Source of the DNA: Lantana camara
Taxonomy: Eukaryota; Streptophyta; Magnoliopsida; Lamiales; Verbenaceae
Assembly (NCBI GenBank): GCA_037501455.1
Contig: CM074858.1
Coordinates: 80,450,501-80,514,500, forward strand
DNA: 64,000 nt
Direction: 5' to 3'
Notes under the pieces: generated by a model
What the model was told of the DNA's origin: nothing
The model's input: only the letters and a program-made list of their open reading frames with translations
The model's database searches: none
Translations under genes and position numbers: made by a program
Shown: positions 1-64,000 of the stretch, in pieces
How positions within the stretch are numbered: position 1 is the first letter of the stretch
How the letters are laid out: the number at the start of each line of letters is the position of its first letter

Positions 1-491
1 TTACCCGAGATTATAACTTGCATGTATGTGCGCTTATAATTATTTATACCCCTCGCTCAGTCCGTGTTGGACTGACACCTCAACTTTTCAGTTGTTTTGC
101 AGGGCGTGCTAGGCGGGAATTAGAGTCTAGAGTGTCTTTAATTCGGGTCTAGCACACTTCATTTCACATTTTGTTCACGTATAGCTAATTGGGAGATTTT
201 GTATCATGCCTTGTTACCTATTTTTGGAGATGATATTGTATTGATAGTGTAATTGTTGGTACCTATTAGTAAATAAATAAATATGGTACCTATAAGTATT
301 GAATGAATCATTGCTTCCGCTTTATTGCTCTGAATTGTTTGGTTTGGGGTTTAGTCCCGCCTAGCCTTGTGTAGTTTTTTTTTATTGTCTCCCGTTCGCT
401 ATAGCTTTGGTTCATGTATGGATTGACCATTTCATACGTGGATTGGGGCTATAGTGCGGGGGATGTGGTGTCTAGCGTTCCGAGTGCTACA
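1..491 (+). mobile_element. LTR A: 3' portion of a long Ty3/gypsy-type LTR (truncated by the window edge)
   Basis: This is the end of a plus-strand LTR. It finishes in CTACA at 491 after the terminal box GTGCGGGGGATGTGGTG (454-470), which is shared with the other long LTRs in the window. Reverse-strand LTR B sequence follows directly, so A is inserted in B. The expected 5-bp target duplication on this side is CTTCT (492-496); its partner lies outside the window. A splice-acceptor-like TTGTTTTGCAG ends at 102, in the same relative place as in LTRs D, F, E and I. No protein-coding region is seen. Confidence 0.75.
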
Positions 492-809
492 CTTCTTCAT
501 CCTCCGGGTGGTGGACGGGCTTGCAAGACCTGGCCACCTCATACATAGTGGCTAGTGAGATACATGAATCCTCAAAGGCTTGGTTCCCCTTCCTTGCTAA
601 AACTCCTGACGAGGTCGGTTTCGCCATAGACATAGATGGAACTAGTACATGGAATCACCGTCGGCCCTTGCCTCCCCAGATAGCCACATGCACCAAGTCC
701 CTGGGCCCGTGGGTTCATAATCATGCTCTCGCCAAAATCATTCAAGTCATGAGAAACATAGTACATTACAAATCCCTGAGAAATAATTTACTCGATGACT
801 CCATTTGAA

Positions 810-813
<4 letters not shown>

Positions 814-858
<45 letters not shown>
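814..858. repeat. (AT)n microsatellite
   Basis: An uninterrupted run of about 22 AT dinucleotides within LTR B. Confidence 0.95.
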
Positions 859-863
<5 letters not shown>

Positions 864-935
864 TAGGTTTTTATCCAAAACTTGTCACATAAGGCTATAA
901 GGTTCGATACGTAACTAAAACAAAAACACCCTCAC

Positions 936-1010
936 CTGGAATACCACGAGACAAGAAATATGAGTAATACAGGTGCCTATTCAATTTGGAAGTCTCCGCC
1001 CTGAAACGAA
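936..1010 (-). other. Candidate exon 2 of LTR B (75 nt)
   Basis: On the minus strand it is bounded by a pyrimidine-rich acceptor (TTCTCTTGTACAG, AG at 1011-1012) and a donor CCAG/GTGAGG (GT at 934-935). The LTR H homologue (13021-13096) keeps both boundaries. Splicing is inferred, not shown. Confidence 0.4.
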
Positions 1011-1724
1011 CTGTACAAGAGAAGGAACAATGTGTACTAATGAGAATTGACTCAATATGAAACCACATAGACGCACGACAATCCTCATTAAGTGGTATCA
1101 CATGTTTTGAAATGATACGATAGATAATAAATCCTAAAGTTTCCTAGAGTGGTACATAAATGATTCAATCATTCAATTCATAATACATTACAGGACATGT
1201 TAACAATGCATAAGAATCAATTAGAAGTGGAAAGAAGTTTTTTAACACGTAGAGAATGCAATTAAGAATCATAGGGTATCAAATAACCACATAATTCTCA
1301 CTTAATCAAGTATACAAGTCATATAATTCACATACGGGGATCAAGGAAGTGAAAGGAATGTAAGAAGAGAGATTTAGGCAAAGTTTAGCAAAAGTTGATA
1401 GTTTTTGGAAACGAACAAGCTGTAGAAAATTGGAGATATCTCGAGTTCTAGAAGTTGGAATTGAATTTTGTTTATTGTTTATGAAACTAGACAAATAGGT
1501 CTTTCCAAGGATATATGCTACGAATCATGGTTCAAAGCGAGGTGAAAATGGCGTAAGCCCGAAGTTGGATGAATGCAGATTTTCGGTGAAGTGGCGACAC
1601 CAAAATGGATTGATTCTAATTGGAGAATGTTCTAGACTTTAAGAGGATTCTTAAATTTAGGCTAATCGGAGTATGGTTGAGGGGTAAATGGATCAAAACA
1701 AACTCAGACAGAAAATAGGAGAGG

Positions 1725-1833
1725 ATCCACGGCCGTGGATTTTTCCTTCATAAAAATCCACGCCCGTGGGAAGGCCTTCGGGTCTCTGGACACGAATCCA
1801 TGGTCGTGGGTCAAAATCCACGCCTGTGGATCC
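1725..1833. repeat. Four spaced palindromes, arm ATCCAC (LTR B)
   Basis: Copies start at 1725, 1756, 1796 and 1816. The first is a perfect 16-bp palindrome (ATCCAC-GGCC-GTGGAT). The others keep the 6+4+6 layout with centres GCCC, GGTC and GCCT and slightly altered arms. Other LTRs in this window have the same design with different arms. Confidence 0.85.
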
Positions 1834-2773
1834 TTCTACGGCAGCAAAACATGACAGCAACTAAGCTCAAGCAAGAAGGCATCAAAAGGGTAAGCAAACT
1901 CACTCCAAATCCATCAAAATTCAAGGTATAAACTCATATATACATGCTTTATCATTAGCCTAGCAAAATAGCATGAAATACATAAGAAACCAATCCACCA
2001 TTTTTACATCTATACACACATATACATACACACATACTTGCTCCAAGAATTCAAACAATTAGGCATAAAACTCATGGATTCAAATATTAGACTATCAAAC
2101 ATATACAAATTCATGCTTCAAACTCAAAGAAATTCAAACCCTATCTTATTTGATATATACACAAAACCCATATAATACCTTGGAAGAAAGAAGGATGAAA
2201 GAAGGAAGAAGATGGATGCTTGAAGCTTGAAGCTTGAGCTTAAGGGAGAAGAGTAGAGCTTGAAATCCTTGTCTTCCTTGTTCTTGCTTGGATCAAATTT
2301 GGGGAAGAAGAGGAGAAGGGGTTTGGAGCTTTGGGTGTTGAGAGGAAAAGAGAAGAAGAAAAATAATGGGAGCAAGGGGTGTGTATATCGTGTGATTAAC
2401 GGAGAGAGATGGGAGAATTTGCACTTTGGTTCTCCAAGAATTTAAGTGCTCCATTAGGACCCCTAGGTTTGATAAGTTGGCAATTGGGTTTAAATCTAAA
2501 GTTCGATTGACTCCAAGGATTTCATATAATTTCAAATAAGTGCATAAGTGAAATAAAACATTTAATTGGCAAGTAAGCATGTTATAAACGAATTTAAATA
2601 GCATAGTCAATTAAATCATCTAAGTCATATAAGTCACATAATAGCAATTAGTTCACGAAATTATTAAGTTACACAGTCACTTAGCAATTAAAACATAATT
2701 AAAATCACATAACCCTCAGTCTAAACCCACTCGTGATGTCATACCTTACTTGTCAAGAAAATCGGGGGTTACA

Positions 2774-3181
2774 AAATAAAACATAAAATAAAAGAAAATC
2801 ATACCTTAAATTGAGGGGGTGGGGGTGGGGTGGTTCGAACCTGGGGGGTAAGACAGAATGGTGTAAGCAAAAATGAGAGGCCAACACACTTATTTATAGT
2901 TATGGAGAGGGACCTTTGTGCAAATCATATTTATTCTAGGGACTTAGAATGGTGTATTTCTTGTAAATTCCATAAATAGGTTTGCTCTTAGTAAAATTGT
3001 TAGGAGAAGGCTATTTTGGTAATTTTGCCTTAATCCTGCATATTCTAGGGTCTGAAAAAGTGCCCAAGAGCTAGAAAATAAAATTAGCTTCAAAAAGATT
3101 ATTCATGGGTCGAAATCGGACGTACGGTTTAAAAGTTATAAACGTCGGAAGAACGGATTTCCTTAATTTCATAAAATGATT
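2774..3181 (-). mobile_element. LTR G, first part: family-C-like LTR split by a MULE
   Basis: Sequence between LTR B and the MULE. It has the layout of the family C LTR promoter region on the minus strand: a TATAAATA box (2891-2898), a short leader and a donor-like TTTAAG/GTATGA near 2801. The stretch CGTACGGTTTAAAAGTTA (3121-3138) matches the solo LTR C' at about 60240. It most likely belongs to the same LTR as 8291-8480. The LTR start is outside the window. Confidence 0.55.
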
Positions 3182-3618
3182 GGGAAAATTGCAATTTTGG
3201 TATACCAAGTACCCTATTTAAGCATTTTTACGCCATTTCATTTTCCGATGAAAAAACAAACCCTCAACTCAAAAAATTGGCAAAACAATGCCAAATTTGA
3301 CCCGAAATGCTCATATCCACCGGAAAAAAAGCGGGTTCAGGCAACACCCGCCACGTGGTTATTTTAGTGCCATGTGTTCAAAAATGCTTTGCTTTCCAGA
3401 AAGGTTTTTCTTGCTTTCCAGAAAGGTTTTTTTTGTCATCGATTGTTATCTTTGTGCTGACTTTGATATAAAAGGTGTAAGCTTTTTGTTGTTTGTATTA
3501 TTCCATTTCGTTATGTGGTTTATGGTTCCCCATCTTGAATTCTTTTACATTGTGTCCCCACTGAATTGTTTAACATTGTCGTTGTGCTTATTTGTGAGAT
3601 ACTTTCGGTGTACTTTTA

Positions 3619-3620
<2 letters not shown>

Positions 3621-3699
<79 letters not shown>
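3621..3699. repeat. (TTA)n microsatellite
   Basis: A long TTA/ATT run of about 26 units, just upstream of the first recognisable transposase exon. It appears to lie in an intron or 5' untranslated region. Its translation to poly-isoleucine is an artefact. Confidence 0.95.
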
Positions 3700-3701
<2 letters not shown>

Positions 3702-3719
3702 TTATTTTTGGAAATTTTA

Positions 3720-5512
3720 GATCCAGATTCAACAAGTATCACTTTATCTATTTACCATGGAGGTAATTTTGAGAACAACCTGTATGTGGGTGGTAACATT
3801 AGAAAAGTGGATTATGTGAATGTTGAAAAATTAAATTTGTTGAGCGTCGATGAGTTCATTCAGGATCTATTTGTTGAGAGGAGTATGAAAAAATTTTACA
3901 CAGCTCTGAGCCAAGGGTTTAAACTGATATTGCATGATGATGAGCTGAAGATTTATGGTAGGAAATACCTAAAAAAGTCTAGAGAGTATCATCTGATTAT
4001 TGGATCTTTGACTAATTGAAATGGTGAGCTAAATGTTGCTGAAGTTGAGAAAGTAAGTAAGGTAGACATACAAGAAGAAATTGCTGCAATTGAAAAAGAT
4101 ATTATCGAAGAAGAAACAATGGCTGAAATTGCAACTGATTCTATACAAAATAATGAAGAAAATAGGGTTGATAATGACAGTGGAGTTCGTGAATAAAGAG
4201 AAACAAGTGTAGAATTCTTTGCAAGGGTGGATAACTCTCAAGAATGGATTGATGAATATTGTCGTAGGTACCCAGGTCCTGCAAAACAAGCTTAGGATAA
4301 TAATCAATCTGCACCCTATGTTGATAATCATTATGACAATGATGCTTCTTTTGATGGTTTGTATGTAGAATCTGATTGCAGTGGTATGGATGATGATGCT
4401 TTATTTGATGAAATTATTGGGAAATCAGTAGAACCAAAATTTACTGTGGAGGGAGAACAAATAAATGGAAATAACTATGTTCAGTGGCTTAAATTTGATG
4501 AGGTGGTATCTGATTCTGCTTTTTCAGATGATGTTGAGTGGGTTCTTCCTGAAAAGATGACATCTTCATCTGATGATGATATCCTATTTGAAGATAATGT
4601 TAGTGAAAGTGCAGAAGTGGGTGACACTGACCAAAGTGATAGTGGTGAGGAGTCTGAGGGTTCAACTGAACAAAGTGATGATGATATTGTGGGAAGTCAG
4701 GATGATGGACTAGATCAGCATAGGGTCTCTGATAAGGAAGGTGAAGTTAACTCTTTTCTTCCATTTAATGATAAGAATATATTTGACCTTGTATTTGATT
4801 TGGGGCAGACTTTTGCCATTAAGGAGATATTCAAAAAAAGTGTGACTTCTTATGCAGTTAAAATAAGAAGATCACTTCCTTCTGGAAGGTCTGATAACAA
4901 AAGGGTTTATTATAGATATGCTGCTAGAAGGTGTCCATTTAAAATGAATGCAATTAAGGTGACAGACACAATAGATGAAAATGAAGCTGCATTCGTTTTA
5001 AGAGAAGTCTGCCGAACTCATACTTGTAATGAAGGCTACCATGTAAAGAATGTGAAAACAAGATGGTTAGCAGAGAAGTTTATATCTTTGTTCAAAAGTA
5101 ATCCCAAGAGATCTGTGAAAGGGTTTAAAGTAGATGTGGAGAATGGACTTGACATCAATATTTCACATGACCAAGCATACAGGGCTAAAGTAATGGCACA
5201 AGAGATGATACAGGGCGATCCTGACCTACAATATATAAAGTTGTGGGATTATGCAGAGGAATTAAGGAAAACAAACCCAGGGTCAACTGTAATTTTGGGA
5301 ACTGATGACAGTGGAGGGCAATTGAGATTTTCCAGATTCTATTACTGTTTCAGTGCCATGAAGGTTGGATTCCAGTATTGCAGACCATTAATCGGAGTGG
5401 ATGGCTACCACCTAAAAGGGGCTCATGGTGGTATTTTGTTGACAACAGTTGGTGTGGACCCTGAAAATAGCAATTATCCAATTGTTATTGCAGTAGTTTC
5501 CACAGAAAACAA
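3720..5512 (+). pseudogene. mudrA-like MULE transposase, N-terminal and DNA-binding part (broken)
   Basis: A single frame begins after an acceptor-like TTTTAG at 3714-3719, with a MULE-type N-terminal domain (ITLSIYHGGNF, YVGG, LSVDEFI). After an acidic linker comes the MuDR DNA-binding region (FAIKEIFKKSV, RRCPFK, CRTHTCNEGYH). It ends in the start of the catalytic domain, LIGVDGYHLKGAHGG, where the Asp in GVDG is the usual first catalytic residue. Three in-frame stops break the linker: TGA 4017, TAA 4194 and TAG 4293. At about 5513 the reading jumps from STENK straight to NNSCESFNN, so the middle of the DDE domain, with the second Asp and the Glu, is deleted. No initiator ATG is clear. The product cannot be an active transposase. 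Confidence 0.85.
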
Positions 5513-6388
5513 AGTGTGGCATGGTACTCAACAACTCATGTGAGTCGTTCAACAACACCATTCTTGAGGCAAGAGATAAACCCATAATCACCATGCTAGA
5601 ATGGATTAGGGAGCATATGATGAAGACCTTTCAAAAAAACAGGGAAAATGCTGAGACATGGGAAGGTATATACATACTATATATATATATATATATATAT
5701 ATTCTTTTATGCTGATACTTGGGAAGGTATACTCTTATTTTGCAAAAGTTAGTTTCTTCATGATATTTTTTAATCCATTTTTGCAAATATTGTCTTCAGG
5801 ACTAGTTTGTCCCACAATTGCCAAAATCCTAAAGAGACATGACGAGAAGGTTGGTGGATGCAGGCCAATTAAGGCATCTAGAAGTCACTTTCAAATTCAA
5901 TGCAATGATGGAACTCAGTATGCAGTGGACTTAGATGCAAGGACATGCAGTTGTAGGAAGTGGCAACTGACAGGGATTCCTTGCAAACATGGATTGAGTG
6001 CCATCTACAATGAAAAGCTTGACGAACTTGATTATGTTGCTGAATGCTACCACGTTAGCACTTACAAGAGTGCATATGCTGGGATCATAATGCCTATTAG
6101 CAGTTAGGAAATATAGGGTAAGACACTATTCATACCACCTCTTCCACCAAACATTGGAAGAAGAAAAGCTGGCAGGCCTGTTAAACTAAGGAGAAGGGGT
6201 AAAGATGAAGCAGAAAGGAAAGGGAGGTCAAATAGGGGAAGATCAGTGATTAGGAAACTCAGGAGATTCCAAAAAACAATCCACTGTTAACACTGTGGAC
6301 AGCCGGGACACAATGCTTTGTTCTGTCCTGATTTGCCTCAATGTGCTAAGGAAAAAGTGAACAAGCTGAAAAAAAAAAAGGGCTTTTG
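5513..6388 (+). pseudogene. MULE transposase, post-deletion part with SWIM finger and zinc knuckle (broken)
   Basis: Resumes as LNNSCESFNNTILEARDKP, the conserved segment that follows the catalytic core in MULE transposases. An (AT)-rich intron (about 5667-5799) separates it from an exon with a SWIM zinc finger (CSCRKW...GIPCKHG, pattern CxCxnCxH, near 5946-5994) and the usual YKSAYAGIIMPI motif. In-frame stops follow at 6105, 6114 and 6288. The last lies inside a CCHC zinc knuckle (C-x-HCGQPGHNALFC). The exon reads into TGA at 6386-6388 before the next donor. SWIM fingers also occur in FAR1/FHY3 proteins, but the order of domains fits mudrA. Confidence 0.85.
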
Positions 6389-6477
6389 AGGTATGTGTTA
6401 ATTTACTATTTTTTCATTTTGTTTCAGTTCTTATTATATTATTTATATGCACATATCTTTTGTCTTGTTACATTTAG

Positions 6478-9420: not shown

Positions 9421-9426
9421 GAGGAC

Positions 9427-10780: not shown

Positions 10781-12176
10781 AGAACTGTAACGCCCCAACT
10801 TTTCAGTATTTTAAAATGACATATGTGTTTACTAATTTGCCCAATTTAATTGGTTTTTAGTGTTTTCTATAATTAAATTTCATTGTTTAATTGTTAAATA
10901 AGTGATTAATTGAAATATATGTAATATTTGAATTTGAATTTATGTGAATAACTTGTGTGCTCCTTAATTGCGCGTTTACATTATTTACTTTCTTAATTAA
11001 TCATTTTTCCTAATTACTAATTGTAACTTTTATTAATTTCCCATTATACGCATTTCGTATATATTTAAATAAATATTTTAAATGGATTCTTAATTTTATT
11101 TGAATTTTGGAAATATATGAAATCTTGGTCGATTTGCATTTAGGTGACAAGCTGTGCGCCGTTACTATATGAAATGAATCCAAAATTTTGTGGAAATTTA
11201 ATATGTTGTAGATATGCGTGTCATGAATGTGTACATATGCTTGTTCTACATTTTCGGATTCGTTTGAGTGCATTTTAAATTTATTTGGTATGATTGGAAC
11301 CAAACCGGGGGCTAACGAGCATAGCGCACCCTTGGTTCCGTATGTGATATCTTGAGCTAAGGAAATCGGAATCGAGTTCCGTCAACTCCTTTGAACTCGT
11401 AACGAAAATTCGGGTTCAATAAACTTAACCTCATATTTTTCTAAGATCATTTGGACCCTCGAAATTTAACCGAAACTTGCGACGGGAGTCAAAACAGCCA
11501 CAACATATCAAATGAGCCATAACTTCCTCATATCTTGACCAAATTAACCATCGTTTGAACCTATGTGACCTTAGTTAACCCTAATATCCTCCCATACCAC
11601 TCCCATACCGAGCCATCCCTCACACAAAGCAAAAACTCAGCCAAAAAGCCCTGTACTCCAGAAAATCCCGTAGCCATTGTCAACCTTGAGATTCAAAGCT
11701 CAAATCTCTTCCTTCTTCCATCCAATCTTCAAGGTGAGTTTAGGATCATGTTATACATTCAATATGGGTCATTTTAAGCTATGTATCCCCAAATTTGATC
11801 ATGTATTGAGGAGGTTTTGAAATTATGAAGGAATAGTTAGGTTATATGCCAATATGTTGATCTCATGCCATCCTTGGTTGTTTTGATTGATTCCAAGCTT
11901 GAATATGATTGTCTTGACACCTTCTTTGCATTTATGGTGATGTATTAAGTAGTAGTTGAAGTATTCATGAGCTACCATTAATGGATATTTGAAGCTTTTG
12001 CATGAAATGATCTTCTACAACTTCATCTCACGTTTGATCACTTTGGGAGCGTGTTTAAGTGTTACTTTGGGGTTGTTTTAGTGTATATTTGATATCATAT
12101 AAAAGCTGGACATGTTGGTTAAGATTTGGCATGGTTTCGGCTCTGTTTTCGTGTTTTTTGGTTGCTGGTGCAGGGT

Positions 12177-12304
12177 GGTAGCGGCCGCGGCCGATTTTAG
12201 TGCAAAAATGGTAGTGGCTGTGACCTGTGTGTGTGCTTTTTACTTTGCTCTCACAGGTAGCGGCCGCGACCGAATTTAGTTCATTTTTGGTAGCGTCCGC
12301 GACC
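12177..12304. repeat. Four spaced palindromes, arm GGTAGC/GCGACC (LTR H)
   Basis: Copies at 12177, 12210, 12256 and 12289. Each is 16 bp of the form GGTAGC-GGCC-GCGACC with small changes. They lie about 450-570 bp after the first donor-like site, as in LTRs B, D and F. Confidence 0.85.
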
Positions 12305-13020
12305 CCATTTTGGCTAACTTTCAAGATTTGACAAAATTGGAGGAAAAATTCGAAATTCAAACTCTTAATACATGATTTCCTTGGCTCGTTTCCGGCATGT
12401 ACACTTCATTAACATGTCATATAATATGTTAATTTGTGTGTTATGAAATTTTATAATTTTTCATGAATTATTTTCCGAGTTATGGCTCAATAAGCCTTTA
12501 ACGCCCCAATGTGTGCATGCATGGAATGTTGCTTTTAAAGATGAACCCTAATTGCTTCTTAATTCTTATTTTATGACTTGTATGATATGTATACATGCTA
12601 TATGATGTGTTATGCTCGTTATTTGGAATTCTTAGCTTGATCTAGCTTAAAATATGAAGGATATGAACTTAAATGAATTTAAATGGTACATGTATGCTTT
12701 GATGTTTCATGTTTTGACCCTAAGTGACATCTTACTTCTTTTTAATAACTTATATGAATTGTATACATGGTATACTATGTATTATGTGTATCACTTGAAT
12801 TCCTTGAATTAATTTGGTAGGATTTATGAAAGATATGAAACATATGGATATGAAACAACCATATATTGAACGTTTTGAATGAATTACTTAATTATATGAC
12901 CTCATCACATGATTCATGCTTCTTATGCATTTCATATCATATGCATAGCATGTCGTGCGTCTATGTGGTTTCATATTGAGTCAATTCTCACAAGTACACT
13001 TTGTTCCTTCTCCTGTACAG

Positions 13021-13096
13021 TTCGTTTCCAGGGTGGAGACTTCCGATTGGAATAGGCACCCGCATTAATTATGCTTTATGTCTCGTGGTCTTCCAG
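13021..13096 (+). other. Candidate exon 2 of LTR H (76 nt)
   Basis: Acceptor TTCTCCTGTACAG (AG 13019-13020) and donor TTCCAG/GTGAGG (GT 13097-13098). Boundaries match LTR B. Inferred only. Confidence 0.4.
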
Positions 13097-14428
13097 GTGA
13101 GGGTGTTTTCGTTCTAGATAAGTATTGAATCCTACAACCTTATGTGATAAGTTTTGGCCAAAATCTTAAGATATATTTATATATGGTTTTCAAATGAATT
13201 TATCGAGTAAATATTTTCACAAGGATTATGAAATATGCTATGCTTCTTATGAATCAAATGTTTTGGCGAGATTATGCATGTATGTTATGTTCACGGGCCC
13301 AGGAATTTAGTACATGTGGCTATCCGGGGAGGCATGGGCCGACGGTGATCCCATGTGCTGATTCCATTTATGTTAACGGCGAAACGGATCTCGTTAGGAG
13401 TTTTGACGAGAAAATGCTAGTCGGGCAATGAGGACTCATGAACCTCATTGCCATTATGTATGAGGTGGTCGGGTCTTGCAAGCCCGTCCACCACCGGAGG
13501 AAGAAGGTTGGAACTTATTTTATGACTATGATTATGTTATGATTGTTATGCACCGTGTGGGAAGGCCGGGATACGGATTGTCCAAACGACTATGTATTAT
13601 GTTATGTTATATGATCTGTATGTATTATAATATATTGCATGATCACATATTTCAAGTATTAATGATATTTGTCGTACACGGTCGGAGTTTGGTTGGAGAT
13701 GATGCACGCTCACTCGCCGAGCCTTTTATTTATGTATGAATTTTGAACTAATGAATTTAATATGATTAGTCGTAAAGTCCGAGTATCACTCAGCTATTCT
13801 CTTGCCCCTTTTGGGAATTAACTCTAAATAAAACTTCGCTCGGGATTTATGACCTGCATGTGCATGTTTTTATACATATGTATCCCTCCTGCTCACTCAG
13901 TCTTCTAGAGACTGACCCTCTCCCTCCCTAATCTTTTAGTGCGTAGGTTTGGCTTTGGAGCTTCGAGCTAGGCGGTTTTGTGTTGAGTCTTTGTGTCGGT
14001 CAGGTTAATCTAGAAGAGTCTCTGCACTCGCATATGTATTTGAATTGTATATGATTCGACCTTGTAAGATTATGAATATTGAATCTGTATGTATTAGTTA
14101 TCGAACTACCCTTGCCAAGGCATGTGTTTGACTTTTAATTTTCCACTGCATTATGTTTGGTTGGTTGGTTTAATTGCACAGTCTATGTTCCGCCTAGCTT
14201 AGGAGGTTTGTTTTGTTTATCTCCCGTTTGCTATGGTTTGATACGGGTACGGACTTCCTATTGCGTTACTCGTGTTGAGCCATAGTGCGGGGGATGTGGT
14301 GCCTCACGTGCGGGGTACTACAAGACCAGAATCATCAAACCTAAACTTAGTTTCCCGATAAATCCTAGCTTTCATGACCAATCTCTGAATTTCCAGATCA
14401 TTAGCTTGAGCTTCAATCAGTCTTTGCT

Positions 14429-17804: not shown

Positions 17805-19199
17805 TGTAGCGCCCGGAGCGGCGAGCCAACACATCCCCCGCACCTAGACCCGAACCCACATATGAAATAGAAATCCATACGTGAGCCCAAGCCTAAGCGA
17901 ACAGGAACCTACACGCACACTCTAAGCCAGGTGGAGCTAAGACCAGACCAGAGTGCGCAAAAACCAAAGAAAGCGGAAGCATACAATAAAAACAAGAAGA
18001 TAAATCCACAAAAATGGGTTCAACTATCTCTAGAAGCCTATCCCAAAAAAAATTTTAATCAAGAATTCAATCATAATTCATTAACAAATGCAAAACATAT
18101 ACATAATACAACTATCAAAATTCGAATCATATATACAAAAGGTGACCGAATGTAAATGAAAATGCAACTCGATCTAGGAAGCTATAACTTGACCGACTCA
18201 CGACTCCGCCTAGCACAACCCGAAACCTGCAAACTGAAAAGTTGAAAGGAGAGGGTCAGTCCTCTGATTGAGTGGGGGAGGGGGGGCTAACGCACACCCA
18301 CACACGTATATATATAGAGCAAAACACAAAATAAATAAAAGACTATGAACCAGGATAGGGTTTTGCATACTAAAGTCATTTTCGAATCAAACTTAAACTT
18401 ATACTTAGAAACATAACAAACTTAACATATTCATAATATAACATAAGGAAAAGCTCCCATCCCGTTTCATAATCAACATAACTTAACTGATTCTTATACC
18501 AGGCGAGCACGGGTCTTACTCTAACTCCTCAATTCTTAATTTAAATACAAAACGGAAAACATAATCACAAACAATCCTTCCCCATCACGATGTAGTTTGG
18601 GGAACAAGCCCTCACTACACATTACCATTACCAAAAACACACGGGGTAGCTAATCCACGTTGTGCCTTCCCCGGTTATCCACCGAGGGCTCAAAGCATCA
18701 CGCCTCCTCAACCTCCACGAGTCGCACGTGAGTACTTCAAATGAGAACGTGTATGGGGTCATAACCGGTGACCCTATGGTCGTCCCGGGTCTCCCTTACC
18801 CACGTCTCGGGGGAGGGGGGGCTAAAGCACTCCATTACAAACACAATACCATAACTCGTCACATACCAAACTTATCATATTAAAACTTACGTACCTTATC
18901 GGAGCATACCTTACCTTGCAACTTAGCATATGCTATAGACGTACCTCTCCATGTCATCCTAATCCGTAGCAAGCTTCAATACACACGGTTTGGAGCATAG
19001 CCTCGTTGTAAAACATTTCAAGCTCACATATGCTTGTACATATATTTCAAAACATTTAATCTTATAACAAGATCATAAACGTATCTTACAAGCACATATC
19101 TAATATATAAATATAATAGTATAGTCACATGCGGGCTTGAAAACGAGCACATAGGGTTGTAGGTCGTATTAACTAAAAAGAAACAAACCTAAACCTCAC

Positions 19200-19279
19200 C
19201 TTTTTACCAAAAGTGCTCACGGACGAGCGTTGACAACCAAGAAGCTAAGTGGTGGAACGGACACCTCCCGAACTCAAAT
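19200..19279 (-). other. Candidate exon 2 of LTR D (80 nt)
   Basis: Acceptor TGTTTGTTTGTCTCAG (AG 19280-19281) and donor AAAG/GTGAGG (GT 19198-19199) on the minus strand. Same order and spacing as in the other LTRs. Confidence 0.4.
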
Positions 19280-19951
19280 CTGAGACAAACAAACACATAC
19301 TCAAGACTTAGACTTGATCATGAACCAATTAGACGTACGACGAATGCGTATGAATGCAAATGATGCGTAAAGAAGGCAAGGATATCTCATATGATGCTAC
19401 TATGAATCATATTAAGTCATAATGCGCATATCTCACGTAAAGCAAATTCATAAATTTCATGCAACACTCATGATACATAATATAATATATTAGAAATACA
19501 TACATTTCATAAAAAGGGAAAAGAAAGATCATGCAAGGCAAATAAGCGAGGTATGAAGTCATACCGACACGTTGAAGTGTATAAGATACATATAAGGTCA
19601 TATATTGTATGTACGAATATCGAATTCACACCATAAATTCATAATACAACATATAACACGTTAATATTGCATGCATACAAGAAAAGAAACAAGAAAACAT
19701 CAAACGAATCAAGGAAACATCATATTAATTCATGCATGCACGTTAGGGGATACACATCACATAATGGATCACGTATTGCATACGAAGCATCGAAAATTAC
19801 GTAATTAATTCATAACATCACATGTAACAAATAATATAGCAAGTTATCCACTCATACAAGGTAAGAAAGAAGCAAGAAGAACACGAAAAACACTAACGAA
19901 GCGAAAAATAAAACGTAACAGCAGCAGCAACTCGAGGAAGCCCTCAAATGG

Positions 19952-20093
19952 GGTCGCGACCACATGCCCAAAGGTGGTCGCGGGTGCGACCACCACCACC
20001 TCCAGCCTGAGCAGCAGTTTCAACTTGAAACTTGGGGGAAAACTGGTCGCGGCCGCGACCCAAAACATCCTAGTTTTGGTCGCGGGTGCGACC
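19952..20093. repeat. Four spaced palindromes, arm GGTCGC/GCGACC (LTR D)
   Basis: Copies at 19952 (centre deleted), 19976, 20045 (perfect 16-bp palindrome with centre GGCC) and 20078. Centres of the second and fourth are GGGT. Confidence 0.85.
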
Positions 20094-20164
20094 ACGGGTG
20101 ATCAGCACCAGAAAATGCGAAAACAAGGCTATTCCTTCTCTCCAAAGCTCCTAACACCAGCAGC

Positions 20165-45395: not shown

Positions 45396-45404
45396 TATAT
45401 ATAG
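45396..45404 (+). promoter_or_regulatory. TATA box of LTR I
   Basis: TATATATAG about 40 bp before a pyrimidine (CT) tract, a layout typical of plant LTR promoters. Confidence 0.6.
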
Positions 45405-45439
45405 CTTGTGCACAAGACACATTTCTCCCATTCCCTTTT

Positions 45440-45473
45440 TCTCTCTCTCTCTCTCCTCTCCCACTCTCTCTTT
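45440..45473. repeat. CT-rich microsatellite in the LTR I leader
   Basis: Mostly CT dinucleotides with a few interruptions, just downstream of the TATA box. Confidence 0.85.
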
Positions 45474-45589
45474 CCCGCGGGTACCATGCGCGGCTTCGGT
45501 TACGAGCCCATAACTCGATCGTTTCTCGACGAAATTCAACAAACGAATAGTCCATTTCGCTTATCTCGACGAGACCGACGTAAGAGTAC

Positions 45590-46370
45590 CAATTTCACGG
45601 CCTAACGGCGAACGGTGGCGGAGTTATGGCCGGATTTCAGTAGCAGCGGCGGAGCTGTCAGACCGCCGCCACTTCGCCGGCGTTTCGTGGCGGTTTCCGC
45701 CCATCCCCTTGTTACACGCGCCACATGCCCAGATAGAGGACTTCCTGGCGCAGCGGTTGACGTTGGAGGTGCGGCAATCGGAGCAGAGACGGCACCGCAC
45801 GCGCCGCCCAAAGCTCGCGGCGGCGGCGCGAGTTACTGTAGCAGCGGCGGCAGAAACTTCGGCGGCCAACGGGGGCCTTTTCCGGCCATCTTTTGGTCTC
45901 GGGATCTTCACGAAAGTTGTTCGGAACGACGAGAACTAGTGACCTGTGATCAGGCGACTCCAGATTCGGTGGTTTGGCGGCGGATCGGTGGCGGTAAAGT
46001 GGCGGTGCAACGGCGGCACTAGCTCCGAGGATTTTTCCGGAAAGCTACCTTAGGGCTTTCGAAGAGCTCGTCATGGGTAAGACAACACCTCTTTCGTATC
46101 GCATTTTGGTTCACCGGTTAGGAAGTAATTTGAGTTTGAAGATTTAGGGTTTTCGTGCTCTTAGATTTCAGATCTACGACAATCGGCTTGCAATTTCCAG
46201 AAATTGATCGAGGATTCGGAACGGGCACGGAGACTTCATTCAGGACTGATTTTTCGGGATTTTTCCGGTGACTTTTGACGGCGGTCCGGTGGCGGCCCGG
46301 CGACTTTCCGGCGGCTCCGGTGGCGGCACTCCGGCGACTTTCGAACAGAATGTTCGTCTCGTTGTGGTGA
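45590..46370 (+). other. GC-rich leader island of LTR I
   Basis: A block rich in GGCGG and CCGGCG motifs inside an otherwise AT-rich LTR. It includes two copies each of CCGGTGGCGGC and CCGGCGACTTTC near 46285-46346. A 135-codon frame (45615-46022) is Arg/Ala/Gly/Pro-rich with no recognisable domain and is probably a by-product of composition. It may be leader RNA rather than protein coding. Confidence 0.5.
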
Positions 46371-47473: not shown

Positions 47474-47546
47474 AGTTTGGTGGTGCCGGTGGGCCCGAGG
47501 TTTAGAGTGTTTGGCCCTTCACACTCTCAGACTCTACTTTCACGAG
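47474..47546 (+). other. Candidate exon 2 of LTR I (73 nt)
   Basis: Acceptor TATGTCTTGTCACAG (AG 47472-47473) and donor ACGAG/GTGAGG (GT 47547-47548). Confidence 0.4.
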
Positions 47547-54711: not shown

Positions 54712-54716
54712 AGGTC
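54712..54716. repeat. Target site duplication AGGTC, right copy
   Basis: Partner of 20165-20169. Confidence 0.9.
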
Positions 54717-55853
54717 CAAGAAACAAAAGACAAGGAAAAAGACAACAAAATATAGCATAAAGCAGTAGCAATTCACACAACAACAACAGCTAACACGCAA
54801 CAGCACAAAGGGAAGCAACAAGGTGGAGTTGATCTGCTTCTTCAAGCTTTAATGGAGGTTCAACAAAGGTGGTTTGAATTATAGCTAATTTCCATGAAAT
54901 ACATGATAATAAATAATGCAAACAAGTGTTTTAGATCACAAATAACTCATCAATTCAAGAAATGATCCAAGGAAAGCATAAATTCACCAAGAAATTCCAT
55001 ATAACCTAACTATTGATAACTTAGCCCCAAAACTTGATCAAACATGGATAAAGAAGAGCAAATCATGACTTAAAAGAAAGGCAAAGAGATGGAGGTTTGA
55101 ATTCTGAACTTACCTTTCGAATTTGGCGAAGAACGAAGGTCGAACGAGCCCAATACCCGACTTTGAATAGTAGCAGCCCCTTTTCTCTTTTCTTCTTCCC
55201 CCTTCTTCGTTTCTACTTCTTTTCCTTCTTTTCTTGGGGCTGTACCGAGTTAAATGAGAGAGAGGATGAAAAAGTGTTAAAAGAGGATCAAATGGGTTTA
55301 AAAATGGGTCGATTCGGTTAAGAAACGGGTCAGATATTGGAAAAATGGGCTGGGGTGGCGAAGCTACGCGTGCTGATCGGTTCGGACTAAATACGGGGGT
55401 CCAAACGGGGATAGAAAAATACAAATCCAAGTTTCTTAGTTTTCTTTCTTTGTTACGAGTCTGACGTCACTTCCGGAATTCGAATCCGAATTCCCGAGCT
55501 CAAGATATGGACTCCGGAATCCGAGGCACGCTAAAACTCATTAGGCCCTCAAAATCCCAAAAATAAAGAAGTGGTCTCCGACCAATTCGAACAATTAAAA
55601 CAAATAAAATAAACACGTAAAAAAGTTCATGAAACATATAATTCAAGTATATCACATATTCACGAAGTTCGGAAATTAAATTCAAGTATTAGAAATTAAA
55701 CACGGAGGTTAAAACGTAAAATCTAAACATTTATGGCACATAGGTCACCTAAACATATAAATGAAGATATAAATTAAGTCAAAAGAAGAAATAAACGTCA
55801 GAAAACACACTCGTGACGTCATACCTGGCTTGTCGAAGAAACGGGGTGTCACA
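54717..55853 (-). mobile_element. Solo LTR D, right part (its 5' start on the minus strand)
   Basis: Continues LTR D after the family C array and ends (minus-strand start) TGTGACACCCCGTTTC at 55853. GCACC follows at 55854-55858. Contains the U3 block GGAATTCGAATCCG (55476-55489) shared with E and F, and a donor-like GAAAG/GTAAGT (GT 55112-55113). No genes. Confidence 0.9.
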
Positions 55854-55858
55854 GCACC

Positions 55859-56266
55859 TCAACCGAGGGGCACCACATCCTCCGCACTAGAGTCCAACAT
55901 GTGTACCGGAATGGAGAGTCCACACACGCATCAAGCAATAGTGAACGGGAGACAAACAAAACACACACCCTAGCTAGGCGGTCTAGACCCTCATTCCAAG
56001 TGCATAATAAAAGAAGAGTAGAGCGGAAGCGATTAAGCAGTTCATAACAAAATCTCAAGATCATATATATACCAAAATAAGTTCAAGCTAGCATACTAGA
56101 TCCATATACAAATATACAAATATACAATGCCCATCCGGGGCCAAAAGATCAAGAGCGAAAGTTTAACAAATGTCAAGATACATATCCTCAAAAGTCATAA
56201 GTACGTAAAGAAGTAGTAAACCACTACAATGCAAAATGAAGATTCGAGCTACGCCACAAGTAAGAC
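55859..56266 (-). mobile_element. 5' LTR of element E, middle piece
   Basis: Rejoins the TGTAGCACC stub at 17796-17804 and holds the terminal box in variant form (GTGCGGAGGATGTGGTG on the minus strand, 55871-55887). Ends at AAGAC (56262-56266), where LTR F is inserted. Confidence 0.8.
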
Positions 56267-57524
56267 TGTAGCGCCCGGAACGGTGGACCACCACATCCCC
56301 CGCACCTAAACCCAAACCACATATGAAATGGACCTCCATATATGAGCCCAAGCCTAAGCGAACGGGAACCTACACTCACACACTTGGCTAAGCGGGGCTA
56401 AAGACCGATAGAGGGCGCAAAGCAGTAAAACATATAAGCGGAAGTAATAAACAGGATCCAAAAGAGTTCAACGATAAACATATAGTAACATATATACCAT
56501 GGCCTCTCGGCCCAAAAATAAATACAAGTATTCAAGAAATCTCCAAATAATACATATCAATACATAAACATGATCCAAGAGTATCCAAAAGCTGTAAATA
56601 TGTATTCAGACTCGACCTAGACCGCTAAGTACGAATTGACGATGCACTTCCCCGCCTACCTCGAGCAACCTGCAACTAAAGGGAGGAAAAGAGAGGGCTC
56701 AGTCAGCAACTTTACTGAGTGAGGGGGCACACGCGCACCCACACACGTGTAAGTATAAACAGAGCATATATCAAAGGGATGGTCATGAATCCAGGCTAGG
56801 GTTTTGCATACCAAATCGTTTGTAAAAAATAACGTAATATACAAAAAAAGTGTCATATCTAGATCCATAATCCACCAATAAAAACATAAACAAATGTCCG
56901 GCGAGTATGAATTTCCACTAACTCCTCAAAACATAGCACAAAAATAGAATTCAACAATACAAATCCAACCCCACATCCTTGGTGTTTCAGGAATCAAACC
57001 CTCTCCACCTACAATATAAAAACATACGGGGTAGCTAACCCACAATATGCCTTCCCCGGTTATTCACCGAGGGCTAAAGATAACACGTCTTCCCAACCTC
57101 CAAGAGTCGCATGTGAATATCTCAAAGGGAACCATGCACAGGCAAAACCCGACGGCCCTTGCCGCCCTAGGTATTCCTTACCCATAATTCCCGGGGCCCA
57201 ACATACCGAATCGAACCATATTTCCATCTTTCAGGGCATCCTCGCTCATACCATAACATAAACGTATAAAATGATTTAAAAGAGAAGCTTACATATGCTC
57301 TTACATTTATCGATTTCATAAGATTCAAGTGTTTCCATAAAATCAAAATCCTAGCTTAAACATACGTATTTAAATATATATAAGATATATATATTCGTAT
57401 ACGGGGTGAGAAAACATCATATAATAGGCCTTAGGTTGATAACTAATACAAAAGCTCCTAAACCTCACCTTAACAAAAGTAGAGACGAAGAGCCGGGGTA
57501 AAACAGGCAAAGAACCACCTAAAC
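56267..57524 (-). mobile_element. Solo LTR F, left part
   Basis: Starts TGTAGCGCCCGGAACGG on the plus strand, close to the LTR D terminus. It is interrupted by C' and resumes at 60901-62550, for about 2.9 kb in total. AAGAC duplications at 56262-56266 and 62551-62555. Late acceptor TTAGTTGCAG (AG 56670-56671) and terminal box (56289-56305). A candidate exon 2 (57469-57524 joined to 60901-60929, 85 nt before insertion) is split by C'. Confidence 0.9.
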
Positions 57525-58379
57525 TGTAGCGCCTCCCCTATCACTACAACTCCCGCACCACAATACTCCCTAAGTGGAACACTCAGGAAATACTAGGGCG
57601 GACGGTATAAATGGTACTTAAGTCGGGTGCAAGTTATGAAGCAGCGAAAGATAGTGAAACTTGAAACTTTGTAAATAAACGGGGATGATAATGTGCCAGA
57701 AAAGAAATGACTTATTATTATTGATTAAAGTAGCTCACATAAAAAGGGGTATAATATAGTAACATGCTAAGGGAAAACACAAGGGCAGCTTATTCTTATT
57801 ATCTACATGCTCAGGACTAAGTGCCCTTAGAATAGTCCTGACCTACTATACACGACACCTTACCGCTTCAAGATACCTCTAGGTGTCGTTCCATTGCTAC
57901 CTGAATTCATGCATTTCAAAATGGGTGAGGAGTTAGTCAAAGTGACTAAGTGAAGGGATATTAATTTATAGATATAGATATATATAGGACCAAGAAGATC
58001 TTAGTCTAAAATAATAGCAATAGGATATAGCAAATATAATACGGTTCATAAGTTTGAAATAGGGATAGGGGTATAAAAGGATTATTCACAAAGTATGAAC
58101 TGCTTAATAAAAGAGTTTGTATTGCCCGCAAGCTAGGCCTCTCCAACCGTACTCCGTCAATAATTTGTAAAATAGTACCGGGCTGATCAAGGCTCCGATA
58201 CTTTATTAAAACAAAGTATGATAATACCTCCACTACTCCTTGGTGTCAATAGGGGAGCAAATCCTAGAGACGATATATGTAATAATCGGGAAATACATTC
58301 CCTGGGAGGTTGTCTCCCTTATCTCTTGGCGTGGAGTAACTAACCTCCAGTTAAACCACTACCAAGAGTTGGCGGTGGT

Positions 58380-58435
58380 CCGTGTCACCAACAATACCCT
58401 CGGCCCGATACCTTCCGGGTAATTGCTCGACACGG
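58380..58435 (-). other. Two-stem hairpin in LTR C'
   Basis: Outer stem CCGTG/CACGG and inner stem CAATACCC/GGGTAATTG. Compared with LTR1, both stems changed on both sides and still pair. Confidence 0.55.
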
Positions 58436-58705
58436 CTGCAGTCGGGGCCCATAATAATAAGAGATGAATATTTTACTTGCTTAGTCGGGAATCAGTTCTT
58501 AGTAAGAATAGGACTGAAGTATATAATGTCTAGATAAGATCCTGATTCCGACTTAAAAATGTTTTTCCTCATAAAGAGGGATATTATAATATGATATTAT
58601 GCATATAGGATAATAAATCATAAATAATAGGTAGGCTTGAAAATAGTTTTTATATAGATACATAGATATAGACATGATTCCAGTTGAAAATATTTTAACC
58701 CTCAC

Positions 58706-58762
58706 CTACTGCTGAAACTTAAGTGGAATTGTGGGGATTCCACTCTTCGATTCTACCGTCGC
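58706..58762 (-). other. Candidate exon 2 of LTR C' (57 nt)
   Basis: Acceptor ATTACTTTCAG (AG 58763-58764) and donor AGTAG/GTGAGG (GT 58704-58705). Same length as in LTR1-4 despite sequence divergence. Confidence 0.45.
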
Positions 58763-60900
58763 CTGAAAGTAATAACTACTACTGACTTAGAACTAAGTTC
58801 TTATTATGCCAATCAAATAATCACATTAAGTACATAATATTCTAATCAAATAACCACATAAGGTACGTATTATGTAGCACGTTAGAGAATTTTTGGTAAA
58901 TCCTAATTTTAACCGTTTAATGGAATTTAATTAATTAATCACGTTTTATGAAGTCTTTAACTAATCAAATATTTATTAATCACCTTATAATCCTAATTTG
59001 AATATTAGAAATGTAATTTAAGGTTTAATTTGACAATGTAGGTTAGGTTTTGAAATTATTTTACAATTTACCCATTTTTTGAACAATTCGGATAAAATCT
59101 TTCTTTTAAAATTCCAAAACCTATTTTATAATTAGTTTTGAATAATTTTCGAAATTATATGAATATATGTTGACCAAAAAGTCAAAATTACTATTGAAAA
59201 CATCTACTATTCAAATTCTTATGAATTAAACACTTTATAACATAAAATTGAACTTACACACACACATACTATCACACGTGCACGTAAAATTGATCAAGAA
59301 CATTATGAATGTGTTCTTAGACTTATGAATGTGTTCATATTATCTCACGATCAAATTTAATAAGTTCTAAGTCCATAACACATAATTAAACTTACAATGT
59401 AGCAGTTTATGTAACTTTAATCATAAAATTAATTCTAAATAAATTATTCTAGGCATGAATTTAGTCAAACAAGATCATAATTATTTAAACACAAACTCAT
59501 ACTATATCATATCATAATTCATGCATTTAATTAAATAAAATTTCATAATGTAGACACCTTTTATTTAAAACTAACAATTATGCATATATTTAATAAAATA
59601 AAATTCATAGAGCATAATTTAAATAAACCTAGGCATGCTATGACAATATTATACTAAAAACATAATATAAAGGATGAAATAATAAAAGAAAAACACGCCT
59701 TATGTAGAGAGAGAGGGTGAGCTCATGACTAGTGAGAGAGAGAGTGATGATTTTGTGTGAATTTTGTGCATGCTTCTTAGGGTATTTATAGGTATGGTTT
59801 AAGGGCTTATGTTGTAGTTTCCTATTCTTTAGGGTAGTGACTAAGGGCTTTAGGGTAGCTAGGTGTATTATCTAGGGTACCTAGGTGTATAGACAAGTGT
59901 ACAGGTGATGTAGGAGCTTATGTATACATATATTAGGTAATAAATTCATCACAATAAAATAAATCTAAAATAGGGTAAAATTAATGATAACATCGTAGAA
60001 GAATCTCTAAATTTTAGTTTGAAATGAGAAAATTTTCAAAAGAAAGAGAATCAAAAGAGCTTTCCGATGATAAACACTTAACGTTTAAACATCTAACTTT
60101 AAAGTAGTAGGCGTTCGGAATTTCGAAAAATATAAATACTTAAAACAGTGGTAGGACGTGAATTAATTTCCAAGAAAGTTCTCATGATTCTTAAAATTAT
60201 TTAAGGATTATTTTGAGTATAATATTGGATATCAAACGCCGTACGGTTTAAAAGTTAGTTTTTACGGCGGGAATAGTACTTTAGGAAAAATAGGAAAAAT
60301 TTATAAAACGAGATAGGATTTAAACTAGAGTTTGGAAAATATCTTAAAATTCATACAATAATTAAAGGATCATTTTGGTTATAATATTGGATAGGGAAAG
60401 TGTTGGAATTCGAAAATACTTTCAATTAGGGTCAAACTAGGGTTTCATGATCGGTTTTGGTTGCTACGGGAGTTACAACGAGAATTAGGATTCGGGAATG
60501 ATACCATAATTCATAAAATTTTTCAAGGATTCATTCGAACCCAATATTGGATAGGTAAAAATATCCCGTTAAATTTCTACATTTAGGAATGAATAGTTAC
60601 TAGGGACCTAAATGGGATTTTTTATAAACAATTTTCAAAGTAGGTTTTAGAATATCAAAAGCTACGATATGAATCTAAGAAGTGTGAAATCGAGCTTTCT
60701 AAGGTTTCATGAGGAATACATGAAGGTTTAGGCTCGATGAATAAATAGTGATATGAGTCTCAGAATAAGATATTGGCAACAATCGAGGCATAAAAGCACA
60801 TAGTTCTTATAAAATGCAATGCATAATGGTTTGAGTCTTTCTTCTAACCCTTTATTTACCTATTTCTTCTTGGCCCCGAAATCCGGGATGTTACATAAAC

Positions 60901-62550
60901 CTCGGGTTGGACAACGTTCGAAAACGGCTCTGAAACAAAAGGAGACAAAACCCGAGACTTAAACTCAAATATGAACCATAAAGACGCCCGACAATGCTTA
61001 TGAATGTAATAAATGCAAGTGGAGTGCAAACACATATCATCTTAGACATATAAGTTCATAACTCGAAGCATTTATATCAAACTAAGCCATAAATTTAATA
61101 CAATGCATAAAACACATAATATACCACGTAAATAATACATATAAGTCATAAACGAGGCCAAGAAACGAGGAAACAAAGCAACAAAACGAAGATAAAACAT
61201 ATACACATACAAGGGGTAAGGGGTGACGCGTGTCACTCTTTTCAAGAGCAAAAGGAGTGACTCCCGTCAAGGGAGGTAGTAGCGAACACTCAAGGGGGTG
61301 ACGGGGGTCAAAAAACTGAGTTATAAAGGGGTGACCCCCGTTGAAGGGGTTAACACCTGAATCCTGCAAAAAAAAAAAAAGCGTAGCAATACATGACTGT
61401 CCCCTGCAACTCACAACAACAACAACGCAGAAACAAAGGCAAGCAACAACCAACCATGAAGTCCCATAAAAATGAGTAAAGATCAGGCTGTAAACATCCA
61501 ACAACAACCAGCAAGAAAGAATGGAAGCAAAAGGTTGCATATTCAAGTATTCAAAGCTTAAAACATTAATGCCAACATTTAACCTCATCACCTACCAACA
61601 AAATGAGGTCCATATAATCATAAATGAAGCTCAAGTGGTTTAGATTCAAGCATAAATCAAGAAAAACACCAAAGATGCCATAGGATTCAAATATGAGCAT
61701 AATCCCTAACTATTAATATCATATATCATATCTCCAACAAAACCGACTCAAATTGAGAAATTATTGGATTAAAATGATCAAATAAGGAAGGAGAAATCAA
61801 ATATACACTTACTTCTTGAAGATGGTGGAGGAAAATGGAGAAATGAGCTCAAACCTCTCCTTGGGTGAATAGTGACGAGATGGAAATGGTTTTTCTCCAT
61901 GCTGAAATTCTCCTCTTTTTTCCTTAGTGAACCGAGATGCAGGAGTATTGGAAGCAAGTGTATTGAGGTGGTGGATGGTGAGACCAAGTTTCATGAAAAA
62001 AGGTTGAAAATTGAAGGACTTATGTACAATTTACTCTAAGGTGGTCGTATAGGCGCGAGGTGAGTTTCCGGTCAAATTTCGGAGTATCAAATGGTCTTAA
62101 AAAAATATAAGGCTTGTTTCGTTATCCCCGACTCGTCGAAACAAGTCCAACGGAAGCGACAGAATTCGAATCTAAATTCCCGAGTTTGAGTTACAGAAAC
62201 CAGAACCCAAGGTATGCTAAAACGTTTTAGTCTCCTTTAGGTTCCAAACTAAACAAACAACTCAAAAGCTCAACAAATAAACTCGAAAACATAAAACGAG
62301 CACATTCACATGTTTATAACACATATAAGTCATGCGTATCAAATAAGCACAAAAATTGGAATTGAAAACGATAAAAAACGGAGCAATTACCAACAAAAAG
62401 AACATAAACGTTCAAATATGAATTCAATAATTAAATGAATAAGGATTAAACATTTGTAATAAACATATATTAAACATGTAATGCGCAAATAAGGAATTTA
62501 AAATGCACACATACGTCATACTTGTATGGCCAAAAAGTGTGGGTGTCACA
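60901..62550 (-). mobile_element. Solo LTR F, right part
   Basis: Continues LTR F and ends (minus-strand start) TGTGACACCCACAC at 62550. Contains four palindromes (61223-61344), an A run (61369-61380), a donor-like CAAGAA/GTAAGT (GT 61811-61812) and a diverged U3 block AGAATTCGAATCTAAATTCC (62160-62179). The acceptor of candidate exon 2 is CTTTTGTTTCAG (AG 60930-60931). A longer minus-strand frame (61082-61591) has no recognisable domain and is not called a gene. Confidence 0.9.
61223..61344. repeat. Four spaced palindromes, arm GTGAC/GTCAC (LTR F)
   Basis: Copies at 61223 (centre GCGT), 61257 (TCCC), 61298 (GGGG) and 61331 (CCCC, degraded right arm). Layout is 5+4+5. Confidence 0.8.
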
Positions 62551-63430
62551 AAGACACTATGATAGACTTGTCGCTTAGCTCACTCTCCAACTGTACCTGC
62601 AACTCAAGGAAAAAGGGGGAAAAAAAGAAAACAACAGTGAGGGTCAGTCCTAACGACTGGTGAAGGGCTAACTCATGCACCCATAATACGTATAGATCAA
62701 AGCACTTAACAAAACCAAGAGATCCATGAACTGAGAAGTGTTTTTGTACGCTAAAACATATCCCCTGATAATAGATATATGTACTTAAAAGTAGTTGAAG
62801 GCCAAAGGCCAAAATAACCAATTTTAAGTAATTATAAATGCATTCTCGTTTCATAGATCATACAAAGCTACAAAACTCGGTGAGTACAAGTTATTTCCCC
62901 AAACTTCCATATTCAAATTCATAAACCATCCTTTCTCCGGGTGATAAAAATTTTGACGGCCCTATATATCAACAAATACACACGAGACAAGGCTTAATTA
63001 TGACCTTGAAACCTTCAACGGTTGCCTCTGCCGGCTCAAGAGAAAAACCCTTCCTCAAACCTCCCAAGGTTGGGTGAAACTCTCAAATGGAAAGTGTCGA
63101 TGGGAGCACTCGGCGACCACACGACCGTCCCGAGATACCATACCAGTCTCCGAGGCCCAAAGTAAAAAGCAAAGTTCACATATACCACAAAGCTCATCTT
63201 TTAAAGCCTAAAGCTCGCTCACACACACACACTCACTTCAAAGTTTTTCAAATCAAATGCAAAATAGCTTGTATACATATACAAATCAATTTAAAAGTCT
63301 TATAACAAACGGGACAAGCCCTCAAAGTACATATCTTACACGTATCTATCATATAATATACGTATTTCACATGCGAGGCTTCAAAACATATAGCGTTGTA
63401 GGTCATTTAACTAAAAGAACAAAACTTCAC

Positions 63431-63508
63431 CTTGAATACGTGTAGTGTTGACAAAAGAGTTTGAATTGAACGCCTAAGGAGCAAGCTCGTCGTCAACGGG
63501 AAGGTCCT
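63431..63508 (-). other. Candidate exon 2 of LTR E (78 nt)
   Basis: Acceptor TTGTTTGTTTTGCACAG (AG 63509-63510) and donor TTCAAG/GTGAAG (GT 63429-63430). Confidence 0.4.
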
Positions 63509-63798
63509 CTGTGCAAAACAAACAACAAAGGATAATCTTAGACTCAAAATGAACCAAATAGATGCTCGAAAAATGCATATGAATGCGAATGATAAGTATG
63601 AAATGCAACAACGTGACAAGTAGGCCATAAGTAATCATATCTTACACGTTTCATATAAAAATGATCTATAAATTTAATACAACACCCATAACACATATTA
63701 CAACATGTTCATAGCACATATAAGTCATATACGGAGTAAGGAATCAACGAAACAAAACAAATAAATGGACAAATAACACAAATACCCACAAGAGATGG

Positions 63799-63996
63799 GC
63801 TAACGGTTGTTAACCCCTACTACTCTTCTTGGCCCTAACGGTTGTTAGCCAGGTCAGAGGCTCAGACCTCGACTAATGGTCATTACCCCTGAAAACAAAT
63901 AAGGGGACTAACCCCCGTTAAGAGGGTCAGACACCCAAGCCAAGGAACTAACGCCCATTAGCTTACATAACAACGGAATTCCCTAATGGGCGTTAG
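63799..63996. repeat. Six spaced palindromes, arm CTAAC/GTTAG (LTR E)
   Basis: Copies at about 63799, 63835, 63873, 63908, 63948 and 63983, with centres GGTT, GGTT, GGTC, CCCC, GCCC and GGGC. The array may continue beyond the window. Confidence 0.85.
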
Positions 63997-64000
63997 GGCT

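Follow-up and report, generated by a model that had tools for sequence, protein, structure and literature searches.

Nested Ty3/gypsy elements with long LTRs

The window, i.e., the whole 64,000-nucleotide stretch analysed here, is plant-like DNA with nested Ty3/gypsy elements bearing a chromodomain integrase, which we presume to belong to the Tekay clade. The order gag-pro-RT-RH-INT is found in the C and E elements, and several further copies are solo LTRs without an internal part. In the C integrase ORF, the one examined, the chromodomain (PF00385) occupies residues 344-391, at the C-terminal end of the integrase. Among RT relatives, the best 120 listed show 58-73% identity. The window also contains a MuDR-like transposase ORF (4296-5543; PF03108, 23.4 bits, slightly below the cut-off of 25), and Rfam searches at the gathering cut-offs gave no matches. 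In the C copy that was read (29108-27901, minus strand), an extra 5' ORF with an in-frame stop lies between the primer-binding site (PBS) and gag, and a T-rich intron-like stretch precedes gag.

The order of nesting was deduced from the target-site duplications (TSDs) in the sequence (Table 1). LTR E, which reads as the 5' LTR of an element whose gag lies at about 17.4 kb and is followed by the PBS tggtatcaaagc, hosts both D and I; the pol of the same element carries the solo LTR H. Within D lies a tandem C array (20170-54711) comprised of four LTRs and three internal parts, with one TSD (GACCT) around the whole, and the solo LTR F sits inside one of these internal parts. A further solo LTR, C', splits the candidate exon 2 of I.

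Table 1. Coordinates of the LTRs in the window and of the splice-like sites assigned to them (a slash stands at the exon-intron junction)
Feature	Positions	Strand	TATA and exon-1 donor	Exon 2	Exon-3 acceptor	Palindrome-like cluster
LTR A, 3' end only	1-491	+			TTTTGCAG/GGCGTGCTAGGCGG, first exon base 102	
LTR B		-	candidate AAG/GTATTA, first intron base 2178	936-1010 (75 nt)		1830-1726
LTR H, solo, TSD agaac/agacc	10786-14322	+	donor 11734	13021-13096 (76 nt)	first exon base 13947	12178-12303
LTR D, 3' part, TSD GGTGC	17805-20163	-		19279-19200 (80 nt)	18226	20095-19949
LTR D, 5' part	54712-55853	-	AAG/GTAAGT, first intron base 55113			
LTR C1	20170-23469	-	weak donor 22271	21383-21327	TTTTAG/G, ~20522	
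LTR C2	29230-32560	-	TATA 31457; weak donor 31362	30448-30392	29587	
LTR C3	38311-41642	-	weak donor 40443	39529-39473	38668	
LTR C4	51375-54711	-	weak donor 53506	52593-52537	51732	
LTR F, solo, TSD AATAA	44879-48843	+	TATA 45396; ambiguous candidate donor 46077	47474-47546	48387	
LTR I, 3' part, TSD GTCTT	56267-57524	-		ends 57469	56669	
LTR I, 5' part	60901-62550	-	donor 61812	starts 60929		61311-61223
LTR C', solo, TSD TAAAC	57525-60895	-	TATA; GC donor 59698	58762-58706	57900	
LTR E, start beyond window	62551-64000	-		63508-63431	62596	63996-63835

Ordered splice-like sites on the LTR sense strand

The first-pass annotation had described, in eight of these LTRs (C1-C4 taken together), an early donor, a short candidate exon and a late acceptor in the same order, an observation that is partly confirmed here. 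The candidate exon 2 is confirmed in position: all eight sites are exact and lie on the element sense strand, with CAG closing every acceptor and a GTGARG donor following the exon (GTGAGG in seven, GTGAAG in E); three of the exon-2 acceptors (D, F and H) score below the 8.5 cut-off. The window contains the word AGGTGAGG 13 times, 1.36 being expected, and none of 100 shuffles reached 13; ten of these occurrences are exon-2 donors in the LTR sense, including the four near-identical C copies, and the other three are a single site repeated in three C internal copies. Across six alignments the exon-2 donor windows fall in conservation percentiles 80-98 and the other three sites in 18-93, indicating that the splice-like sites are retained without being ultraconserved.

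The late acceptor likewise bears out the annotation, being seen in D, I, F, E, H, C2, C', A, C3, C4 and, as TTTTAG, in C1. It stands 358-458 nt from the LTR end in D, I, F, E, H, C2 and C' (below the 8.5 cut-off in H, C2 and C') and 390 nt from it in A. Upstream of its pyrimidine tract D, E, H, I and A have the word CTGAC, and other branch-point-like words occur at this acceptor in F (TTGACAG), C2 (GACTAAT), C' (GACTAAC) and C1 (GAATAAT). The early donor, for which GTAAGT and GTGAGT were given as examples, has that form only in D, I and H; that of E falls outside the window, and the remaining LTRs show divergent versions, namely GTATTA in B, an ambiguous GTAAGA in F, weak GTGAAA, GTGCAA or GTACAA sites in C1-C4 and a GC donor in C'. 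A TATA box is seen in C, C' and F, and none near the exon-1 donor in D, I or H. In F the TATA is followed by a GC-rich, CGG-rich stretch (45400-46080), and the exon 1 of this LTR is a candidate only.

Upstream of exon 2, five LTR families display clusters of three to five palindrome-like, family-specific sites of 14-16 nt spaced by 20-69 nt, which lie in intron 1 wherever the intron-1 donor is visible. Each of the clusters in D, H, B, I and E was matched by none of 20 shuffles; no such cluster was detected in F (10 of 20 shuffles match), C2 or C'. They resemble sites at which a dimeric protein would bind and which diverge quickly.

The predicted exons also differ from the introns in their content of ATG, counted against permuted trinucleotides in the 100 nt that lead up to the assigned donor (D, I, F, H, C2, C' and the outside contigs L001 and L003 described below) and in exon 2 of the eight LTRs. 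Exons 1 and 2 together hold 6 ATGs against 75 permuted trinucleotides and the introns 402 against 1111 (odds ratio 0.22, p=3.6 × 10–5). Two ATGs occur in exon 2 of H and none in the other seven, the ATG-free state being unremarkable in C2 and C', where fractions of 0.82 and 0.74 of intron windows of like GC are also ATG-free. For the six LTRs scored, exon 2 has a higher GC content than 79-91% of the intron windows. We rejected a coding exon 2: its lengths modulo 3 are mixed and stops occur in the frames, pointing to a segment without a shared reading frame.

Exon 3 has 58 ATGs in 2850 nt, a ratio of 1.09 that amounts to no depletion, yet lies below that of the introns (p=9 × 10–4), and it fits a gag leader badly. 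The plant far-upstream poly(A) element is a TGTA-type motif. TGTA is found 80-107 nt into exon 3 in nine of the ten LTRs examined (enrichment p=0.05) and TTGTA reaches a higher density there than in the introns (p=0.02); AATAAA is not enriched in exon 3 (p=0.7). In view of these ATGs and TGTA motifs, RNAs might terminate in exon 3, or gag mRNAs might skip it.

Chance expectation, kinship and outside contigs

To gauge chance, block-wise dinucleotide shuffles (500) were searched for the best four-site chain per LTR, using windows chosen after the layout was known and approximate splice matrices. The best-scoring chains include 20 of the 24 assigned sites. They were matched by 0 of 500 shuffles in D, 27 in I, 58 in H, 81 in F, 185 in C2 and 170 in C', and the score summed over the six LTRs was equalled by one of 500. 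Taking a single LTR from each group, the sum was equalled by 4, 16 or 42 of 500 according to which one represented the group. Among four controls, drawn from three element internals and a MuDR region, the counts were 55, 55, 14 and 13 of 100, the last two being comparable to H and F. The antisense chain scores lower than the sense one in H, F, D and I, and higher in C2 and C'. Hence, the proposition that shuffled LTRs would not yield such ordered sites as often holds for the set as a whole and fails for the C family alone. For C and C' we rejected the splice score by itself as proof, given that shuffles equal it and the antisense scores higher.

The LTRs are also akin to each other: C1-C4 differ mutually by 0.60-1.91%, C' and C share about 75% identity, and B and H are 76% identical across 595 nt. 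In an alignment of D, I, F and E, the exon-2 acceptor, the exon-2 donor and the late acceptor occupy identical columns (in the D-F pairwise alignment alone the late acceptor is offset by 2), and only 11 of the 69 AGs and 14 of the 120 GTs of D are kept in all four. In the seven-LTR alignment, exon 2 of H is displaced by 74-76 columns. The exon-1 donor column is common to D, I and H and differs in F and C. These identities and common columns imply that the eight LTRs are not independent; they form about three groups, viz., D/I/F/E (with A), H/B and C/C'.

Sequence profiles extend this kinship. A profile built from the late acceptors of D, I, F and E matches A (E=1 × 10–7) and H (E=5 × 10–4) at the expected place, and that of the block upstream of exon 2 matches H and B (E about 1 × 10–6). 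The exon-2 donor profile matched B (E=0.003), its best match in H and C2 being the exon-1 donor instead. Against C and C' there was no weighty match at the expected sites, save one weak match (E=0.006) once H was added, nor was there one against the outside loci. The profiles link H, B and A to the D/I/F/E group at the expected places, the link to C not being convincing. The sites, their order, their strand and their retention across related LTR families are established.

Beyond the window, an RT-alignment scan of genome contigs recovered 30 loci from bacterial assemblies, several of these loci being plant-like. Eight (L001-L007 and L024) were mapped by tblastn, LTR parts being read in L001, L003, L004 and L024, and L002 being scored for its 3' piece only. 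L001, L002, L003, L004, L005 and L024 are plant-like retroelement contigs in assemblies of Mycobacterium, Streptomyces, Geminicoccus and others, and are apparently contaminants, as judged from their RT identity of 61-68%. In the LTR part scanned, the strongest donor of L001 is CAG/GTAAGT at 5345, about 140 nt past a TATA-like box, and that of L003 (counted with L004 as one family) is AAG/GTAAGG at 6224, about 160 nt past such a box; an exon-1 donor in a similar position is also established for these two outside plant contigs. The piece of L002 that was scanned has its strongest donor (11.3 bits, at 3303) beside the integrase end, and a strong donor alone hence proves little. Late acceptors were chosen by eye in L004, where CCCTCCCAG/G at 1167 precedes the LTR end and PBS by 285 nt, and in L024 (CTGAC...GGTATAG/G at 957), both under the 8-bit cut-off; the top-scoring acceptor of L004 is at 888, and the resulting exon 2 would contain several ATGs. 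Exon 2 is uncertain in these contigs. Scans of IMG/VR with the C RT, an RT alignment and an LTR-end motif found no plant element. The sole LTR-end motif match there (L031) was set aside, being by eye a phage-like contig with tRNA-like genes.

A putative spliced leader and its alternatives

The idea, raised in the first-pass annotation, of a multi-exon non-coding unit in the LTR is the one best suited to the order of the sites, their common alignment columns, the scarcity of ATG, an exon 2 that does not code and the donors in outside plant contigs, the C family by itself doing no better than shuffles. We propose, with a probability of roughly 0.65, that these 2.9-4.0 kb LTRs contain a spliced transcription unit, from whose leader the host spliceosome would remove two introns, the unspliced RNA serving as the genome template. 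Transcription would begin within the LTR and a short, ATG-poor exon 1 would terminate at its donor; intron 1 (~0.9-1.4 kb) would be spliced out, the ATG-poor, non-coding exon 2 of 57-85 nt would come next, and intron 2 (~0.8-1.0 kb) would be spliced out in turn, with exon 3 starting 358-458 nt before the LTR end and continuing into the PBS and gag. The spliceosome is predicted to use the sites listed in Table 1, and splicing would shorten and clean the gag leader and may aid export. The genomic template is likely to be the unspliced RNA, because reverse transcription carries the RNA 5' end into new LTRs and both introns are present in each of the nine complete LTRs (H, F, D, I, C1-C4 and C').

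A possible alternative, of which we are less than persuaded and which is compatible with splicing, is that every LTR forms a non-coding RNA gene of its own, with a promoter, three exons separated by two introns, and a poly(A) site within exon 3. It differs on the RNA end and role: R would span both introns and the solo LTRs would also make RNA. The placement of TGTA, the TTGTA density and the undepleted ATGs of exon 3 are consistent with it, as is the layout kept by the solo LTRs H, F, D, I and C'. However, the poly(A) signs are weak, the ATG depletion in exons 1 and 2 points to translation downstream, and solo LTRs would preserve the layout for some time regardless.

Retrovirus-like alternative splicing, in which donor 1 or 2 would be joined to an acceptor just before gag or the extra 5' ORF, bypassing the PBS to yield a subgenomic gag mRNA with the unspliced RNA as the genome, is unlikely, though compatible with a spliced leader. 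Acceptor-like sites just before the gag ATG (~17557, minus strand, in the E element; 1454 in L024), the T-rich intron-like stretch ahead of gag in C (28131-27917, minus strand) and the ATG-poor exons 1 and 2 point to it, but the sites were found by eye or with approximate matrices in single elements, and the C acceptor is weak. It is similarly improbable that the sites arose by chance in T-rich sequence and spread by common descent (D, I, F and E share ancestry), in conserved blocks serving promoter, packaging or integration with an incidental splice-like look: the C2 and C' shuffles and the most conserved LTR windows, which include the LTR 3' end and others distant from the splice sites, agree with this, but the donors, acceptors and order occur jointly, exons and introns contrast in ATG and GC, AGGTGAGG is in excess, and the donor is like-placed in two outside contigs.

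If true, the spliced-leader reading would offer an explanation for the unusual LTR length and add a further expression strategy for plant LTR elements, which are generally said to be intron-less; abundant LTRs would also bring ready donors and acceptors able to exonise into host genes. As a tentative and rather doubtful extension, long Tekay LTRs across flowering plants might be selection-kept three-exon units (promoter, two introns, terminator) used in the manner of complex retroviruses, with spliced RNAs placing a short, ATG-poor leader ahead of gag or a supplementary ORF, the genome being the unspliced RNA, and solo LTRs forming ready-made spliced RNA genes scattered in plant genomes.

In retroviruses of the HTLV/foamy type, a splice donor lies in the R region of the LTR, downstream of the start site. 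The proposed unit resembles them in having a donor so placed; in them the acceptor is far downstream, whereas here full introns and acceptors lie within the same LTR. The accessible part of a 2025 review gives plant LTR elements as generally without introns, with exceptions including Ogre and EVADE. Among the titles and abstract openings listed, from a search whose scope left out most subscription papers and bioRxiv, none dealt with introns inside plant LTRs. The additional 5' ORF of Tekay elements in sunflower, maize, sorghum and rice concerns presumably the same clade, and the C copy has an ORF between PBS and gag; however, it relates to a protein rather than an LTR leader, and neither 'intron' nor 'splic' occurs in the accessible text of PMC11728184. 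The Ty1/copia elements EVADE and BARE1 with short-gag splicing are likewise plant LTR elements with alternative splicing for gag expression, which here is predicted from sequence; but the EVADE splice takes out the protease domain (according to the available part of PMC12786077), whereas both introns proposed here lie within the LTR upstream of gag. Ogre (Ty3/gypsy, Tat; pea, Medicago) is comparable as a plant LTR retrotransposon with a spliced intron, with only a subset of its transcripts being spliced. Its intron, however, is internal, between the gag-pro and RT-RH-INT ORFs (as given in the accessible part of PMC6317226); an intron in the internal coding region is a trait of Ogre and EVADE, and both introns proposed here lie inside the LTR.
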